Of a stretch of 64,000 nt of DNA, positions 4,528 through 58,695 are shown one piece after another. The translations under genes and the position numbers were made by a program. Under the pieces are notes generated by a model. That model saw only the letters and a list, made by a program, of their open reading frames with translations, was not told where the DNA came from and ran no database searches. The DNA lies in assembly GCA_020725545.1 (NCBI GenBank), contig DYEV01000032.1, forward strand, positions 1-64,000. Direction: 5' to 3'. The number at the start of each line of letters is the position of its first letter. Positions within the stretch are counted from its first letter, which is position 1. Origin of the DNA: Desulfobacca sp. GTDB lineage: Bacteria; Desulfobacterota; Desulfobaccia; Desulfobaccales; Desulfobaccaceae.

Positions 4528-4632
4528 ACAAGACGGTGATTCAAGAAGGTCCATGGGGGGGAAGGGGGCCAGGAGACCCAGCCCCCGCTCTCAGCCCCAA
4601 ACTTCCCTCCCCAAACTCCCCTTGAAAATCCA

Positions 4633-10617: not shown

Positions 10618-10762
10618 CCGCTGAAACCTTCTTTATTCTCTCCAAGGTGGAGAAAATCCCATTTCATGGACTCTTGGCGCAGCCAAAAGACCGATCTGGG
10701 GTTAGGGGAGGGGGGCGGTGCCCCCTGGCTCCCTCCCCGAAAGCACTTTTCAACACCCTGCT
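10618..10762 (+). repeat. Dispersed TIR repeat, copy A (left end eroded)
   Basis: This shares long blocks with the copy at 57106-57277, including GGAGAAAATCCC, CTTGGCGCAGCCA and CTGGCTCCCTCCCCGAAAG, and ends CAACACCCTGCT. The left inverted end is degraded. It lies between two divergent gene starts, unlike the other copies, which abut stop codons. The G-rich/C-rich centre can form a hairpin. Confidence 0.75.
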
Positions 10763-19774: not shown

Positions 19775-19941
19775 AGCAGGCTGTTGAAAAAACATCTTGT
19801 GCTCCTCAGCCAGGGAAAAGATATTCGTTGCCTATTGGCACAGCCAAAAAGCCTGGTTGGGGTTGGGGGAGGAGTGTGAGAGGGGGGCCAGGGTGCTTAC
19901 CTGTCTGGCCTCCTTCCGACAAGCACTTTGGCAGCAACCTT

Positions 19942-19944
<3 letters not shown>
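19775..19944 (+). repeat. Dispersed TIR repeat, copy B
   Basis: It starts AGCAGGCTGTTGAAAAAA and ends AAGCACTTTGGCAGCAACCTTTTA, the last three bases being the TAA stop of glnB read on the minus strand. The interior has GGCACAGCCAAAAAGCC and TTGGGGTTGGGGGAGG, as in the other copies. It separates glnB from the ABC permease. Confidence 0.75.
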
Positions 19945-20394
<450 letters not shown>

Positions 20395-22806: not shown

Positions 22807-22858
22807 CACAAACATACGAAGTTGACGGTGTGGTTGTTGCGTTTGGGGGTGCAAGTTG

Positions 22859-22902
22859 TCAGAGAGGGGAGCGGGGACCACGTCCCCTGCCCCCCTCTCT
22901 GA
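22859..22902 (-). terminator. Long hairpin downstream of the Hsp20 genes
   Basis: TCAGAGAGGGG and CCCCTCTCTGA form an 11 bp outer stem, with an inner GGGGAC/GTCCCC stem. It lies 27 bp after the Hsp20 stop at 22929 (minus strand). No T-run follows, so it may be a processing or stability element rather than a simple terminator. Confidence 0.55.
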
Positions 22903-22928
22903 GGAGCAATCAGGAAAGTCTTGGGAAA

Positions 22929-28372: not shown

Positions 28373-28449
28373 GGCTGTTGCGAAAGGCTTTTCAAGGGAT
28401 GGGGGGGGCCCGCTACCTCCCTCCTCCAATTCCCTGAGGACTCCCCCTA
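28373..28449 (-). repeat. Probable diverged short copy of the TIR repeat (copy G)
   Basis: Read on the minus strand it begins at the TAG stop of nadE (TAGGGGGAGTCC) and ends GCCTTTCGCAACAGCC, which resembles the AACAGCCTGCT end of the other copies. It has a GC-rich centre but lacks the conserved interior block. Confidence 0.4.
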
Positions 28450-30090
28450 ACTTTCGAAGCGGGCGGCGATGGGCATGCGCCGGCCGCTGCCAAAGGCCTT
28501 GGAGGTTACCTTTAATCCTGGCGCGGCTTGCCGGCGTTTGTATTCATTGCGGTCCACGGTCCGCAGGATCCAGCGGACCACTTCGGGATCAAAGCCCCGG
28601 GCCACGATGTCGGCATAGACCAGGCCCTCATTGATATAATACTCCAGCACCTGATCCAGAATCTCGTACGGCGGCAGGGTATCCTGGTCGGTTTGGTTGG
28701 GACGCAGCTCCGCAGACGGGACTTTGGCAATGATTTCCGGGGGGATAATTTCTCCCTGCCGGTTGATGTGATGGGCTAGTTGGTAAACCATGGTCTTGGG
28801 GACATCGGAGATGACCGCCAAACCGCCGCTCATATCGCCGTAAAGGGTGCAATAGCCCACCGCCAGTTCACTCTTATTGCCTGTGGATAATACCAGGTAA
28901 CCGTATTTATTAGAAAAGGCCATTAAGAGATTGCCGCGGATGCGGGCCTGGATATTTTCCAACGAGACGTCCAGATCACTGACCGGAAAATGTTCGGCCA
29001 AGGCCTGCAGATAGGCCTGATAAATGGCAGTGATGGGAATGGTGACGGTTTTGACGCCCAGGTTGTGGGCCAATTTCTCGGAATCGACCACGCTGCCTGG
29101 AGAGGAGTACAGGGAGGGCATGATCACCCCCAGGACGTTTGCCGGGCCGATGGCCTGGGAGGCCAGATAGCAGGTAACCGCCGAATCAATACCGCCGGAG
29201 AGACCGACCACGGCTTTCGTAAAACCGCATTTGCGCAGGTAATCCCGCACCCCCAGGATAAGGGCATCGTGCACCGAAGCGATTTTCTCCAAGGGTTGAA
29301 AGGGGAGGGGGGGGCCCGGCGAAGCCAGGTCCAGGGTCTCCACCGCTTCCACAAAGGGCGGCAATTTTTTGAGCAACTCACCTTGGGCATTCAGGACCTG
29401 GCTGTCGCCGTCGAAGATCAGTTCGTCATTGCCGCCCACCTGATTCACATAGATGAAAGGCCGCTGGTGGGTCAGGCAATGCTGGCGCAAGAGCTGAAAG
29501 CGGATCTGGTCCTTGCCGCAAGCAAAGGGCGAGGCGGAAATATTCACCAACAGAGTGGCGCCTTGCTGGACTAGTTCTTGAATAGGATTAAAAGGATAGA
29601 GGCTGCAGGCATCTCGTTCTCGATACTGGGCCCAGGCGTCCTCACAGATGGAGAGGCCGATAAGTTGATCCTGGAAAGGGATGACGCGCACCTGCGGTGG
29701 GGTGGCGAAATAACGGGTTTCATCAAAAACGTCATAGCTGGGCAACAGCGACTTGGCCTGAGAATACCGCTGGCCCTGATAAATCAGCAAGGCAGCATTA
29801 TACAAGGCCTTGCCACAGGACTGATCGGAAGGTATGGGTGCCCCGATGATCAGTCCCGTGGTTGGCCGGCGTTGTGATAGATCAGTCAGATGGTCCAGGG
29901 CCTCCTGCACCGCGGCAATGAGAGAGGCCTTGTCCAGGAGATCACGGGGGGGATAGGCCACCAGGAACAGTTCGGGGAAGATAATGAGATCGGTCGCGCC
30001 GGCCAGTCGGTCGAAAACTTCACAGGCCCGCTCCAGATTGCCGCTGACATCACCGACGATGGGATTGAGTTGGGCCAGGGTCACTTTCAT
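28447..30090 (-). CDS. nadE: Glutamine-dependent NAD+ synthetase
   Basis: 547 residues. The N-terminal nitrilase-type glutaminase has Glu (IIFPELFLVAYPP), Lys and Cys (GLSICEDAWAQ) of the catalytic triad, and the C-terminal NadE domain has VGLSGGIDSAVT as the ATP pyrophosphatase loop. It makes NAD+ from deamido-NAD+. The ATG at 30090 gives the expected MKVTLAQLNP start; a longer frame to 30138 has no support. Confidence 0.94.
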   Translation of the reverse strand: MKVTLAQLNPIVGDVSGNLERACEVFDRLAGATDLIIFPELFLVAYPPRDLLDKASLIAAVQEALDHLTDLSQRRPTTGLIIGAPIPSDQSCGKALYNAALLIYQGQRYSQAKSLLPSYDVFDETRYFATPPQVRVIPFQDQLIGLSICEDAWAQYRERDACSLYPFNPIQELVQQGATLLVNISASPFACGKDQIRFQLLRQHCLTHQRPFIYVNQVGGNDELIFDGDSQVLNAQGELLKKLPPFVEAVETLDLASPGPPLPFQPLEKIASVHDALILGVRDYLRKCGFTKAVVGLSGGIDSAVTCYLASQAIGPANVLGVIMPSLYSSPGSVVDSEKLAHNLGVKTVTIPITAIYQAYLQALAEHFPVSDLDVSLENIQARIRGNLLMAFSNKYGYLVLSTGNKSELAVGYCTLYGDMSGGLAVISDVPKTMVYQLAHHINRQGEIIPPEIIAKVPSAELRPNQTDQDTLPPYEILDQVLEYYINEGLVYADIVARGFDPEVVRWILRTVDRNEYKRRQAAPGLKVTSKAFGSGRRMPIAARFES

Positions 30091-32637: not shown

Positions 32638-32689
32638 TATCGGCACCAGAAAACCACAGCCAAGTAACGCTGGTTGGAGGACCAAAAAT

Positions 32690-32812
32690 AGTTAGCCAAA
32701 TCTCCCTCCCGGAGGGAGAGCGGGGGAACCAAAACCACGGGTGAATCCTTGGCCTTAGGGCCAGGGAGGGGCATGCTTTAGCTCTAACCCACCAGCTAAC
32801 CACGCAGGCATT
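32690..32812 (+). ncRNA. c-di-AMP riboswitch (ydaO/yuaA class)
   Basis: After a CTCCCTCCC/GGAGGGAG hairpin the sequence has GGGGGAACC at 32722, GGGTGAATCC at 32739 and CCAGCTAACC at 32792 followed by ACGCAGGC, the conserved core elements of ydaO aptamers in the right order. Known members turn genes off when c-di-AMP is high and often precede cell-wall hydrolase genes. Here the gene 170 bp downstream is a 3D-domain cell-wall protein. Downstream hairpins GAGGCAG/CTGCCTC at 32903-32918 may form the expression platform. Confidence 0.85.
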
Positions 32813-32978
32813 AAAGCAAGCTATTGAGGCGATCCACCGCGGGATCCTCATTATTCTCGTCCCGGCAACTTCCTTCTAAACCAGCACCCCTCTTGATCCA
32901 CTCGAGGCAGAACTGCCTCCGTAGTTGGAGTGGACGATTATTCCCCAAATAGGCTGATGGTTTATTTGGAGGTAACCC

Positions 32979-34652: not shown

Positions 34653-35867
34653 TTGATTATATTGAGTCATATTAAAAAGGCGGGGGCTTTGCCGCCCGAC
34701 TCCGGGGCCGGCGCCTGGGCCAGGGCCTCGGCCGACTATACCATGCAACTGTTGGTCTTTGCCCTGGTGGCAGCGGCCTTTACGAACGTTTATATCACGC
34801 AGCCGGTCTTGCCGGTGTTGCAGCAGGAGTTCGGGATCAGCGCCTCACGGGCCTCGATCACCATGTCGGCGGTTATCTTTGGGATGGCTTTGGCCAACTT
34901 GCCGTTTGGGACCCTGGCTGATATCGTGGCGGTGCGTTGGCTTATCCTCAGCGGCGGCCTGATGGTGGCCGCCAGCGGCCTGATTTGCGCCCTGAGCCAG
35001 AATTTTTGGCTGTTGGTGGCCGCCCGTTGGCTCCAGGGCCTGTTCATCCCGGCTCTGACCACATGTCTGGCCGCTTATTTGGCCGTCAATGTCCCCCCTG
35101 ACCGGCTCAATGTGGTCATGGGCTCGTATGTCTCGGCCACAGTGGCCGGCGGCCTGGGCGGTCGCCTTTTGGGGGGGTTCATCCATCCGCCGCTCCATTG
35201 GCGCTATGCCTTTGTGACTGCCGCGCTGGGGTTGCTGGCCGCGACTCTAGCCGCAGTGCTGTGGCTGCCCAGCGGCCGGCGGCCCCAGCGGACCATGGCT
35301 GCCCGTGGTTTCCGGCAAATTCTGGCCGATGCCCGGACGCTCAGGCTGCTGCTGGTCCCCTTTGGCGCCTTTTTTGTCTTTTCTTCTTCTTTTAACTACT
35401 TGCCGTTTTACCTGGCCGGACCACCCTTCTATGCCTCCACCCAGGTCATCACTTTGTTTTATCTCACCTATCTGATGGGAATCGTCATCGGCCCTCTGGC
35501 CGGCACCTTGAGCAATCGCATGGGCAATGGCTGGGCCATGATGAGTGGTGCCGCAATCTTTGCCCTGGCCCTTTTCACCACCCTCGTGCCGACCATGCTT
35601 GTCATTGTCCTGGCCCTGCTGGGCATCTGCCTGGGCTTCTTCACCATCCATGCGGCTGCTGCCGGCGCCTTAAATCGGCGCATCAGCAGCGGCCAGGGCA
35701 AGGCCAACTCCCTGTACGTCTTGTTCTATTATCTGGGTGGGGCTTTGGGCATCACCCTGAACGGCTATGCCTATGGCCTGATGGGTTGGCCGGGCGTGGT
35801 GGGATTGGGGATCGTGACGCTCCTCATCCCCGGTGGCATCGGCTTCTGGGAACGGCAGGAACCTTAG
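34653..35867 (+). CDS. MFS transporter (YnfM-like)
   Basis: 404 residues with twelve hydrophobic helices and the MFS loop motif FGTLADIVAVRW between helices 2 and 3. It resembles the YnfM/arabinose-efflux group. The start is uncertain: TTG at 34653 is the longest, TTG at 34689 follows AAGGCGGGGG, and ATG at 34743 would start directly at helix 1. The stop codon TAG is formed by the first bases of a TIR repeat relic. Confidence 0.85.
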   Translation: MIILSHIKKAGALPPDSGAGAWARASADYTMQLLVFALVAAAFTNVYITQPVLPVLQQEFGISASRASITMSAVIFGMALANLPFGTLADIVAVRWLILSGGLMVAASGLICALSQNFWLLVAARWLQGLFIPALTTCLAAYLAVNVPPDRLNVVMGSYVSATVAGGLGGRLLGGFIHPPLHWRYAFVTAALGLLAATLAAVLWLPSGRRPQRTMAARGFRQILADARTLRLLLVPFGAFFVFSSSFNYLPFYLAGPPFYASTQVITLFYLTYLMGIVIGPLAGTLSNRMGNGWAMMSGAAIFALALFTTLVPTMLVIVLALLGICLGFFTIHAAAAGALNRRISSGQGKANSLYVLFYYLGGALGITLNGYAYGLMGWPGVVGLGIVTLLIPGGIGFWERQEP

Positions 35868-35905
35868 CAGGTTTTTGAGAAAGTGTGCTTAGCGGGGGAG
35901 GGCTG
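35865..35905 (+). repeat. TIR repeat relic (copy E)
   Basis: It begins TAGCAGGTTTTTGAGAAAG, matching the end TAGCAGGTTGTTGAAAAAG of the family, then TGTGCTTAGCGGGGGAGGG. Only about 40 bp remain. It abuts the stop codon of the MFS gene. Confidence 0.6.
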
Positions 35906-35956
35906 AGATGAGGGGACTGCATCTTCACCCGTTTGCTGAGAACCGGCTCCTGCCAG

Positions 35957-36050
35957 GGACATGGCAAGACAATTCAGATTGACCAAGTTTTCTCTATCCG
36001 GGGCAGCTATCTGCTGCTCTGCCAAAGACCGGCCGGACGCGAGCATTTGC
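35957..36050 (+). repeat. Dispersed fragment shared with 43177-43322
   Basis: GGCAAGACAATTCAGATTG and following sequence match, on the opposite strand, GGAAAGACAACGCAGATCG at 43322; both continue with CTGCTCTGC and GCCGGAC. The 43 kb copy has an extra 57 bp or so. In one frame both read GKTxQIxQxF ... LLLCxxPAG, so they may be remains of a mobile or coding element. Confidence 0.5.
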
Positions 36051-41932: not shown

Positions 41933-42163
41933 GCGAGTGGCCATCCGGAAGGTCCTAAATCCCTCGCGCCGTTCGCAGGGTGGGGGTTTGGGTGAGGGGC
42001 ATAAATAATTATCTCAGCTTGTTAAGCGTGCTGCAGACCCAGGTGGACATGTCGGCTTTATACTCCGCAGCTAGTTTCCGGATGAAGACTAGACTGGACA
42101 ACATTCCTCTTGCCACCACTTCTCCTTGACAGGCGCTTTCCCGTGTGATAAAAGGACAATATA

Positions 42164-42311
42164 CAGGTTCCTCCGGGATAAAAGGGAAGACGGTGCAAAT
42201 CCGTCACGGTCCCGCCGCTGTAACCGGGGACAACGCCGGCATAATGCCACTTGCTCGTGGGCAGGGAAGGCGCCGGCCGAGGCTGATCCGGAAGTCAGAA
42301 GACCTGCCTGT
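42164..42311 (+). ncRNA. Cobalamin riboswitch
   Basis: The order AAAGGGAAGACGGTGCAAAT, CCGTCACGG, CCCGCCGCTGTAA, GCCACT, GGGAAGGCGCCGGC and GGAAGTCAGAAGACCTGCC is the conserved core of the AdoCbl/Cbl aptamer (B12 box at 42274-42295). Such leaders repress B12 synthesis or transport genes. Here two terminators follow, and the next gene is ihfA, not a B12 gene. Expression platform: terminator at 42384, with an upstream CCTCAATCC-type segment that could pair alternatively. Confidence 0.92.
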
Positions 42312-42383
42312 ATGTTGACGTTGAAGCCCATCGCCGAGGCAGCGAGGCTTCAGGATTGAGGACCAAGAAAGCAGGGTGCAATC

Positions 42384-42958: not shown

Positions 42959-43032
42959 TGGGGGATCGTCCAACGGCAGGACAGCGGCCTTTGGAGTCGC
43001 CGATAGAGGTTCGAATCCTCTTCCCCCAGCCA
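42959..43032 (+). tRNA. tRNA-Gln (anticodon TTG)
   Basis: The acceptor arm TGGGGGA pairs with TCCCCCA, followed by an encoded GCCA. The anticodon loop CTTTGGA gives anticodon TTG, reading CAA, and the T-arm GAGGTTCGAATCCTC is standard. A terminator follows. Confidence 0.95.
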
Positions 43033-47879: not shown

Positions 47880-48212
47880 ATGAAGCAGTATGTTCTGGAT
47901 GAGATCGCCCGCCCCGATCTGGAGCGCATCAAGGCCTATCTGGATGGCAAGGCCAAGCCCTCCGGGTTGGAGGGTTTGTGGTGGGTGGAGCTGACCGGCG
48001 AATTACTGAGCGACGAGCAGTCCTCACACCCAGAATGCCAGCCCCACCGGTTTGCCGTGGAGCTGGGGCGGACCTCCCTGCGCTTTGAATTGTTCATCCG
48101 CAGCAATCGGCACCTGCGCTGCTCGTGCGCCGGTTATGCCAACGAACCGCAGCGGGCCTGGATCCTGCACTTTGCTGATCGTCTGGTGGAAGACTTACAA
48201 CTACGCACCTGA
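47880..48212 (+). CDS. Hypothetical protein, 110 residues
   Basis: No family recognised. It is a mixed alpha/beta-like sequence (RPDLERIKAYLDGKAKPSG; LWWVELTGELLS; RFELFIRSNRHLRCSC) with no signal peptide. It follows the protease gene by 23 bp. Its TGA stop is followed immediately by a TIR repeat (TGACAGATTATTGCAAAAG). Confidence 0.65.
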   Translation: MKQYVLDEIARPDLERIKAYLDGKAKPSGLEGLWWVELTGELLSDEQSSHPECQPHRFAVELGRTSLRFELFIRSNRHLRCSCAGYANEPQRAWILHFADRLVEDLQLRT

Positions 48213-48382
48213 CAGATTATTGCAAAAGTGTCTGAGGGGAGGGGGCCAGGGGGACTAGCCCCCTGCCCCTTTACCCAAAATCCCTCCCAACCCCAGATAT
48301 GTCTTTTACTTGCGCCAACAGACCAGCAAAAAGGAATTTCTCTGGCCTGGAGAGAAAGGCAAAGGTTTTTCAACAGCCTGCT
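48210..48382 (-). repeat. Dispersed TIR repeat, copy C (inverted)
   Basis: On the minus strand it runs from AGCAGGCTGTTGAAAAACC to CACTTTTGCAATAATCTGTC, with TTGGCGCAAGTAAAAGAC and GGGGTTGGGAGGGATTTTGGG inside. The plus-strand left end overlaps the stop codon of the upstream gene. It lies between convergent genes. Confidence 0.75.
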
Positions 48383-56735: not shown

Positions 56736-57107
56736 ATGACCGATGTTGCCCCCGAACAACTCCTGGAATTGCCCACCGAGGCGCTCCACCAACTCCCTCC
56801 GCACCGGGTTCTGGCCCTCATCCAGGAGCTTTGCCGGCGTTGGGGGTTCTATGGCCAGAGCCTGACCCTGCGGCACGAAGGGGCAGAATATGTGGTTGCC
56901 TGCCAGGAGAATGCTTTTGCGGTCTACCGGCGGCTAGCCGTGGCGGCCACCCCCCATGCCACCCCGGGTTGGCCGGTCTGCTTGGTGACCAGGGACCACA
57001 TCATCGATGAATGCACCCCGCCGTTCGAAGAAAAAGACTACTTCGCCTGCCACCTAGGGCTGGCCGACTGGCTGACCCTCATCCAGCAGGCCTGCGGAGC
57101 AGACTAG
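56736..57107 (+). CDS. Hypothetical protein, 123 residues
   Basis: Not recognised. It is a soluble protein (RVLALIQELCRRWGFYGQ; EYVVACQENAFAVYRRL) with several Cys residues. It lies 21 bp after the kinase, so cotranscribed. Its TAG stop is formed by the first bases of the TIR repeat (TAGCAGGCTGTTG). Confidence 0.65.
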   Translation: MTDVAPEQLLELPTEALHQLPPHRVLALIQELCRRWGFYGQSLTLRHEGAEYVVACQENAFAVYRRLAVAATPHATPGWPVCLVTRDHIIDECTPPFEEKDYFACHLGLADWLTLIQQACGAD

Positions 57108-57277
57108 CAGGCTGTTGCACAACACCCTTTATTCTCTTTAGGTGGGAGAAAATCCCTTTTCCAGGCTTTTGGCGCAGCCAGAAGGCCGGGTTGGGGGTGG
57201 GGCAGGGGTTTTAGGGGAGGGGAAGGGGGCAGCGCCCCCTGGCTCCCTCCCCGAAAGCACTTTTTCAACAACCTGCT
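57106..57277 (+). repeat. Dispersed TIR repeat, copy D (complete)
   Basis: 172 bp, from AGCAGGCTGTTGCACAACA to TTTTTCAACAACCTGCT, ends being imperfect reverse complements. Interior blocks GGAGAAAATCCCTTTTCC and CTTTTGGCGCAGCCAGAAG are shared with copies A, B and C. A strong hairpin, GGGGGCAGCGCCCCC within G-rich and C-rich arms, lies in the right half. It sits between the stop codons of two convergent genes. Confidence 0.85.
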
Positions 57278-57285
57278 AACCGCGG

Positions 57286-58695
57286 TTAGGCCATCTGGCC
57301 GATGATCTTGAAGAGGGTCATGCCTTTGTGCAAGGTCTCCTCGTATTCGGCCACCTCCTCGGAATCATAGACGATGCCTCCCCCTACGGCAAAATGGACC
57401 TGCTCGCCGGCGCGAATAGCCGTGCGGATGGCAATGTTCAGGTCCAGGTTGCGGTGCAGCCCCAAATAGCCGATGGCACCGCAGTAGACGTGGCGGACTA
57501 CCGGCTCCAGTTCGTCAATTATCTCCATGGCCCGGATTTTGGGGCAGCCGGTGATGGAGCCGCCCGGGAAGGCGGCCCGCAGGATATCCACATGGCTGCA
57601 GGCCGGCCGCAATTGGCCGGTGACGATGGAGACCAGGTGATAGACGTTTTCGTAGGCCTCCAGGCGCTTGTGTTCTTTGACCCGCACCGTCCTTCCCTGA
57701 CAGACCCGCCCCAAATCATTGCGCAAGAGATCCACGATCATGGATAGTTCAGCGTCTTCTTTCAGTGAGGTCTGCAGCTCCTGGCGCAGGGCCGCATCTG
57801 CCTCAGGGGTGCGGCCCCGAGGCCGGGTGCCTTTGATGGGCCGGGTCTCCAGATAATCACCCTGCCGCAGGAGGAAGCGCTCCATGGAGGTGGAGAGGAT
57901 CTGGAAGTCGCCGCAGTTCAAGTAGGCATAAAAGGGCGCGGGATTGCGCCGGAACAACTGCAGGAAGAGGCGATAAAAATCTCCCTGGAAGGCGAAGCTG
58001 AAGCGCTGTGACAGATTCACCTGATAGATATCACCCTGGCGGATGTATTGCCGGGCCCGGCGCACTGCGGCGAGATAACTCTCCTTGGAGAAGGTGCTCT
58101 TGAGCTCACCCACCCGATAGTCCGGCAGAGCCGGGGCCGCGGCGGCCGCCAGGAGGTCTTCCCAACCCAAAGGCGGGGGTCCGGCATCGGCCAGAATACC
58201 GGTTGGGGGTTCATACTGGACCTTGATCTGCCAGGTGCGCCCCTGCCAGCGGTCCTGGACAATGACCTGGCGGGGAAAGGCCAGGACCATCTCCGGCAGC
58301 CGCAGGTCGTCTTTGACCGTCACCGGCAGCCGCTCCAAGTGATTCTTCAGGTCATAGGCCAGGAAGCCCAAAGCCCCGGCGGCGAACGGCGCCACCGGCG
58401 GCGAACCGGGCAGGGCCAGGGCCCCCAAACAATCCTCCAGGATAGCAAAAGGGTTGCCGGTCAACATCTGCGCCCGGCCCGGCCCCTGGACCTCCACCTG
58501 CCGGCCCTTGGCCCGCAGCACCAGGAATGGGTCCCAGCCCAACAGCGAATAGCGGGCCGAATCCAAGTTGCCGCCGCTCAACAGCAGCATGGCATAAGGC
58601 CGCAACCGCAGCCCCAGGAAGAGCTGCTCGAGGCCAATGCCTTCCCCGGGTAGGTGCCGGGGGGTGATCTGCACGTCAGTGATGCGTCCCCACAT
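57286..58695 (-). CDS. pabB: Aminodeoxychorismate/anthranilate synthase component I
   Basis: 469 residues of the chorismate-binding family. FPGGSITGCPKIRAMEIID and GAIGYLGLHRNLDLNIAIRT are the PabB-type signature, and the Trp/chorismate-binding region QVNLSQRFSFAF precedes it. With the glutaminase gene upstream it would make aminodeoxychorismate for folate, or anthranilate. PabB is favoured by the PxxxITGCPKIxAM motif. Confidence 0.9.
   Translation of the reverse strand: MWGRITDVQITPRHLPGEGIGLEQLFLGLRLRPYAMLLLSGGNLDSARYSLLGWDPFLVLRAKGRQVEVQGPGRAQMLTGNPFAILEDCLGALALPGSPPVAPFAAGALGFLAYDLKNHLERLPVTVKDDLRLPEMVLAFPRQVIVQDRWQGRTWQIKVQYEPPTGILADAGPPPLGWEDLLAAAAAPALPDYRVGELKSTFSKESYLAAVRRARQYIRQGDIYQVNLSQRFSFAFQGDFYRLFLQLFRRNPAPFYAYLNCGDFQILSTSMERFLLRQGDYLETRPIKGTRPRGRTPEADAALRQELQTSLKEDAELSMIVDLLRNDLGRVCQGRTVRVKEHKRLEAYENVYHLVSIVTGQLRPACSHVDILRAAFPGGSITGCPKIRAMEIIDELEPVVRHVYCGAIGYLGLHRNLDLNIAIRTAIRAGEQVHFAVGGGIVYDSEEVAEYEETLHKGMTLFKIIGQMA

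Follow-up and report, generated by a model that had tools for sequence, protein, structure and literature searches.

REP/BIME and ERIC repeats are dispersed and intergenic, are often located near gene ends and can form hairpins. The repeat family analysed here, from a 64,000-nucleotide stretch of a Desulfobacca sp. contig (the window), has these characteristics as well. However, it differs from REP/BIME and ERIC in having terminal inverted repeats (TIRs) shared with IS5 elements and a duplication of four target bases, YTAR. RUP of pneumococcus (PMC2229807) and the MITEs of Haloquadratum (PMC3119063) are also similar to it. According to the available descriptions these are likewise short, non-coding and present in high copy number, share TIRs with insertion sequences, duplicate their target and are mobilised in trans (PMC2229807; PMC3119063). 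The Haloquadratum MITEs have only the terminal ends in common with the insertion sequence, and one of them is described from a genome lacking a functional transposase, both as found here (PMC3119063). An autonomous partner in the same genome is usual for active MITE families but is not required for a fossil one (cf. PMC3119063). Unlike the present family, RUP is linked to IS630 and TA (PMC2229807), and an excess at stop codons does not appear in the accounts available for RUP and the Haloquadratum MITEs (PMC2229807; PMC3119063).

IS5 itself is described to duplicate the tetranucleotide Py-T-A-Pu, most often CTAG (PMC5493358). The same 4-bp YTAR duplication with a preference for CTAG is seen here, and complete elements that share the ends of the family code for an IS5-family DDE transposase, as IS5 does (PMC5493358), while the element studied here has no transposase. 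The E. coli IS5 insertions covered by that description are located upstream of or in genes and not at stop codons (PMC5493358), where many of the present copies lie. No description of YTAR insertions at stop codons was found in searches of an open-access literature library.

A sequence-only reading of the window had proposed a family of repeats with copies at 10618, 19775, 48210 and 57106. The existence of the family is confirmed, and its size is far greater than had been noted. These four full copies (57106-57278(+), 163 bits; 48382-48211(-), 126 bits; 19775-19944(+), 102 bits; 10618-10761(+), 105 bits) belong to a genome-wide family, from which the scoring profile was built and which was analysed by searches of the draft genome and of 3-kb stretches around copies. 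The copy at 57106 has 42 BLAST matches within its own genome, and family copies align with each other from end to end. A profile search of the first set of stretches identified 46 copies. The genome-wide search that had been suggested was performed with a sequence model for which 24 full copies were used. It gave at least 133 hits, some of them second hits of the palindromic core on the opposite strand; the number of distinct copies that are recognisable, though diverged, is estimated at ~100 in the 2.94-Mb genome. Two relics had been reported in addition. The one at 35865 is genuine, with its TIR directly following the TTAG stop of a gene ending at 35867, although it is recognisable only at its stop-side end and in scattered pieces, whereas the match at 28373 is weak and ~10 bp separate its end from a TTAG stop. 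Coordinates are listed in Table 1.

Table 1 Copies of the repeat and their target sequences in the window
Feature	Position	Strand	Remarks
Partial copy, profile positions 88-169	4535..4619	-	33.0 bits; between two convergent genes
MITE, left end decayed	10618..10760	+	104.9 bits; no stop-codon contact; neighbours are gene starts
Full-length MITE, left target decayed (GGAG)	19777..19941	+	101.5 bits
Right target TTAG	19942..19945	-	Holds TAA stop of P-II (GlnB-like) gene 19942-20280(-)
Partial copy, profile positions 92-155	22843..22908	+	23.3 bits
Weak relic	28373..28436	-	13 bits (300-bp search); near stop of gene 28447-30090(-)
Target TTAG	35864..35867	+	Contains TAG stop of gene 34662-35867
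MITE relic	35868..36028	-	Weak profile matches; TIR CAGGTTTTTGAGAAAGTG
Target copy, now CTGA	48209..48212	+	TGA is stop of gene 47880-48212
Full-length MITE	48213..48380	-	125.9 bits; empty site in G001
Other target copy CTAA	48381..48384	+	Pairs with CTGA at 48209..48212
Left target CTAG	57104..57107	+	TAG 57105-57107 is stop of gene 56736-57107; TIR at offset 0
Best full-length MITE, TIR to TIR (CAGGCTGTTG...CAACAACCTG)	57108..57275	+	163.5 bits
Right target CTAA, one base off left CTAG	57276..57279	+	Sequence, gene calls

The element measures ~165-175 bp (range 130-180 bp), which is too short for a transposase gene, and is a multi-copy, non-coding sequence. In the consensus, YTAR is followed by CAGGCTGTTGAAAAAC, a GGTGGGAGAAAATCCC block, a CCTTTTGGCGCAGCCAAAAGG hairpin and a G-rich stretch, and subsequently by a long GC hairpin, TTTTTCAACAACCTG and again YTAR. 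Many copies miss the first ~50 bases. A separate 5' module was sought in these left-truncated copies, but only the common interior was seen, so that they look like deletions. The same architecture is present in a second genome of the genus (G001) and in two genomes of another family of the same order (G009, G010). The host organism stands close to Desulfobacca, its best named relative being uncultured Desulfobacca N1_Bin_Bin_94_1 with 81% identity at the protein level. In the host genome old copies prevail, and the targets on either side of one element often differ at one base. One family copy (L035:1243-1555) is apparently split by an inserted palindromic repeat of the GTCATCCTGAGC type, a nested insertion. 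Rfam places a cobalamin riboswitch and a c-di-AMP riboswitch in the window (42148-42325 and 32684-32825), and a tRNA is found at 42959-43029.

The ends of the repeat, CAGGCTGTTGAAAAA, are identical or nearly identical over 15-17 bp to those of complete insertion sequences (L086-L089), and the similarity is confined to these terminal 15-17 bp. An end-sequence search of 29 genomes of the order revealed inverted end pairs spaced 1357-1358 bp apart in four genomes, and these are complete insertion sequences. The one in G002, a member of the same genus, encodes a 361-amino acid transposase with DUF772 and DDE_Tnp_1 domains (Pfam) that matches the IS5-family model NF033581 (E = 5e-88). The transposases of the other complete elements are 86-89% identical to it, the G014 copy carrying one internal stop. 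Transposases of this type occur in 8 of the 29 genomes, among which G002 with an intact one. No intact IS5 transposase of the matching type was found in the host genome, which holds one fragment of 31% identity, or in G001; its partner is thus deduced from the relatives. The repeat is a non-autonomous element of the IS5 family (MITE), and judged from the shared ends an IS5-type transposase would have moved it in trans. Since no transposase with these ends is left in the host genome, the family there has the character of a decaying fossil. Many IS5-type ends in G028 and G014 lie ~65-125 bp from contig ends, so the complete insertion sequence is probably multi-copy and breaks these two assemblies, and its counts in them are likely underestimates. 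A second, younger MITE family of ~136 bp with the same IS5 ends is found in G015, G021 and G023 (L091-L102). Its YTAR duplications are often perfect and its interior is quite different, with a TGTCATCCTGAGCGAAGCGAAGGATCT palindrome.

In the complete elements of relatives the flanking four bases are often identical on both sides while differing between elements; perfect duplications of CTAG, TTAA, CTAA, CTAT and TTAG are found, and a G001 copy of the family (L076) is flanked by TTAG on both sides. It had been proposed that the TAG stop of two genes is made from the repeat's own TAGCAGG. This does not hold: the TAG varies among copies and usually agrees between both ends of one copy, and hence belongs to the duplicated target and not to the repeat. 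As each form of YTAR (CTAG, CTAA, TTAG or TTAA) includes either TAA or TAG, an element that enters a stop codon rebuilds a complete stop at its own edge. Because YTAR also reads YTAR on the other strand, two convergent genes overlapping there each keep a stop.

Contact with stop codons had been reported for all window copies except the one at 10618. Indeed, the contacts at 57106, 48211, 19775 and 35865 are exact to the base and contact is absent at 10618. At 57106 the convergent gene has its stop at 57286, 7 bp beyond the right target, and the P-II product at 19775 agrees with its family model through to the final residue. Random placement of other copies relative to stops had been named as the outcome that would speak against a link with stop codons, and the result of this check is against randomness. 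In the first set, 17 of the 38 copies with intact ends carry a gene stop in the duplicated target, compared to 63 of 379 background sites (16.6%; p = 5e-5). An independent second set, consisting of weaker copies from a later model with criteria unchanged, gave 17 of 37 versus 41 of 301 (13.6%), or 16 of 36 after removal of one duplicate copy (p = 7e-6). For both sets together the numbers are 33 of 74 versus 15.3% of available non-coding YTAR sites (p = 2e-9). The background consists of YTAR sites, taken from stretches near copies, that overlap a stop or are intergenic; genes were called by a home-made hexamer model and intactness of ends was judged from profile coordinates. As ends at stops may be better preserved in copies, all copies whatever their state were counted as well, and 35 of 101 are at stops (p = 1e-6). 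The offset between stop and TIR is zero in 33 of the 40 touching ends, and no start codon is touched by a copy in either set. In five copies (L009, L036, L105, L301 and L321) each end meets a stop, both stops of L301 being T-TAA. Copies of the same family in G001 are at stops in 5 of 13 cases (p = 0.04).

The touched proteins with a full-length family match (AsnS, PdxJ, SmpB, P-II, a macrodomain protein and CobB) end where their family models end, showing that the stops are native. Empty sites were sought by DNA searches with concatenated flanks. At two clean loci, 48211 and L002, G001 has an uninterrupted CTAA with a native stop and the same last residue. At 48211 the G001 gene ends in ...CGCACCTAA AAAAAAGC and the host sequence reads ...CGCACCTGA, element, CTAAAAACG; CTAA in G001 thus corresponds to CTGA-element-CTAA in the host, where the stop has changed from TAA to TGA with its function kept. 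At L002, GCCGCTAAAG in G001 corresponds to CCCGCTAG-element-CTAAAG (CTAG-element-CTAA) in the host. The element at 57106 is missing from the same gene pair in a relative (L107), where the two convergent genes overlap in TTAA; the alignment of the final codons is less exact, and the L107 protein is 1-2 codons longer. The copy at L036 may be an old relic shared with G001, and at L105 the G001 sequence differs at the site.

An IS5-family MITE, moved in trans and inserted in YTAR, whose survivors have gathered at gene ends, is with high confidence the best explanation. An IS5-type DDE transposase supplied in trans would use the CAGGCTGTTGAAAAA ends to carry the ~165-175 bp element from site to site. 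The element inserts into a YTAR tetranucleotide and duplicates it. An insertion in a stop codon leaves a complete stop beside the element and the protein unchanged; convergent genes with stops overlapping in YTAR receive one target copy each, both proteins remaining unchanged. Selection would remove most insertions in genes and some upstream of genes. At stop codons an insertion would alter no protein and would be away from promoters, and over time the survivors would become concentrated at gene ends. In the stretches sampled, genes hold the largest number of YTAR sites (794), and stop-codon sites amount to 7-8% of all YTAR sites; yet few copies overlap any gene call, which argues that harmful insertions are removed. 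Of the two interpretations that had been offered for the family, a non-autonomous element located at 3' ends is thus borne out by the ends shared with insertion sequences, the 4-bp duplications, the empty sites in a relative and the strong excess at stops. A simple and testable reason can be given for the gathering of some transposable elements at the ends of genes: if the 4-bp target includes a stop codon and has the same reading on either strand, an insertion leaves one gene, or two together, unharmed. The same logic should hold for other elements with YTAR, CTAG or TTAA targets.

The preferred reading of the bias for stop codons is that harmless insertions have survived. It could instead reflect active targeting, the machinery preferring gene ends, for instance through melting or supercoiling of the DNA where convergent genes end. 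The three-fold excess over available non-coding YTAR sites would suit such a preference, as would a slight excess of copies in convergent gaps (14 versus 8 expected, p = 0.03), and DNA structure has been proposed to influence IS5 insertion (PMC5493358). However, YTAR together with loss of harmful insertions explains the pattern without targeting, and among the young 136-bp MITEs of G015, which share these ends but belong to another family and make up a small sample, 1 of 9 is at a stop (p = 0.04 versus 45%), which fits survival better. Targeting as the source of the bias is therefore considered possible but not likely. Slightly less probable still is the speculation that IS5-type machinery directly targets stops or convergent ends, or that copies at convergent ends are kept as insulators of two genes. 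If direct targeting were true, this would be 'safe-harbour' transposition, in which an element spreads with little damage since its target motif is a stop codon. It is very improbable that the stops were created by insertions truncating reading frames. A duplicated target carries TAR, which in one of the three possible registers would terminate a reading frame, and the longer L107 protein means that this is possibly partly true at 57106, but the empty sites at two loci give the same last residue without the element and the touched proteins reach the end of their family models. An early reading as a Tc1/mariner- or IS630-type MITE with TA duplication (ends TA-GCAGG...CCTGC-TA) was based on TA being the most constant part of the flanks, and the genome does harbour one IS630-type DDE_3 gene, with an in-frame stop. 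It was rejected, and its probability is regarded as minimal, after the DDE_3 search and the finding that the duplications reach four bases and that complete elements with the same CAGGCTGTTG-type ends encode an IS5 transposase.

The other interpretation that had been offered, a spread terminator, takes the family as a transcription terminator or an RNA element of 3' ends that is dispersed and has been retained on account of its GC hairpin, mobility being secondary. The strong hairpin that had been noted inside the repeat is indeed real as a fold (z = -3.4), the copies follow stops, and the G-rich core also occurs without TIRs in other genera of the order. However, many copies are truncated or occupy tandem or divergent gaps. 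A promoter/terminator scan called no terminator at the 48211 or 57106 copies, and no T-tract (U-tract in the RNA) adjoins the hairpin. RNAalifold on a MAFFT alignment gave no structure and pairing was therefore counted on profile columns, which revealed no compensatory base changes: 77.6% of cells were paired versus 77.1% with shuffled partners, within the shuffle range. The repeat has no match in Rfam. There is thus no sign of a conserved terminator and the intrinsic-terminator reading is not supported; a role as terminator or RNA element in the wider sense is judged improbable. Copies may affect transcript ends locally. A strong hairpin behind a stop codon need not be a terminator and can be the fossil of a transposon.

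A GC-rich core, TTGGGGGAGGGGGCCAGGGGGC...CCCCCTGCCCCCTCCCCCAA, resembling the inner hairpin of the MITE occurs in several genera at scattered sites that show no obvious IS5 ends (L050, L051, L053 and L054 in G015, G008, G018 and G017, respectively). It represents degraded copies or else a palindromic repeat of its own, and its G-runs could form a G-quadruplex.
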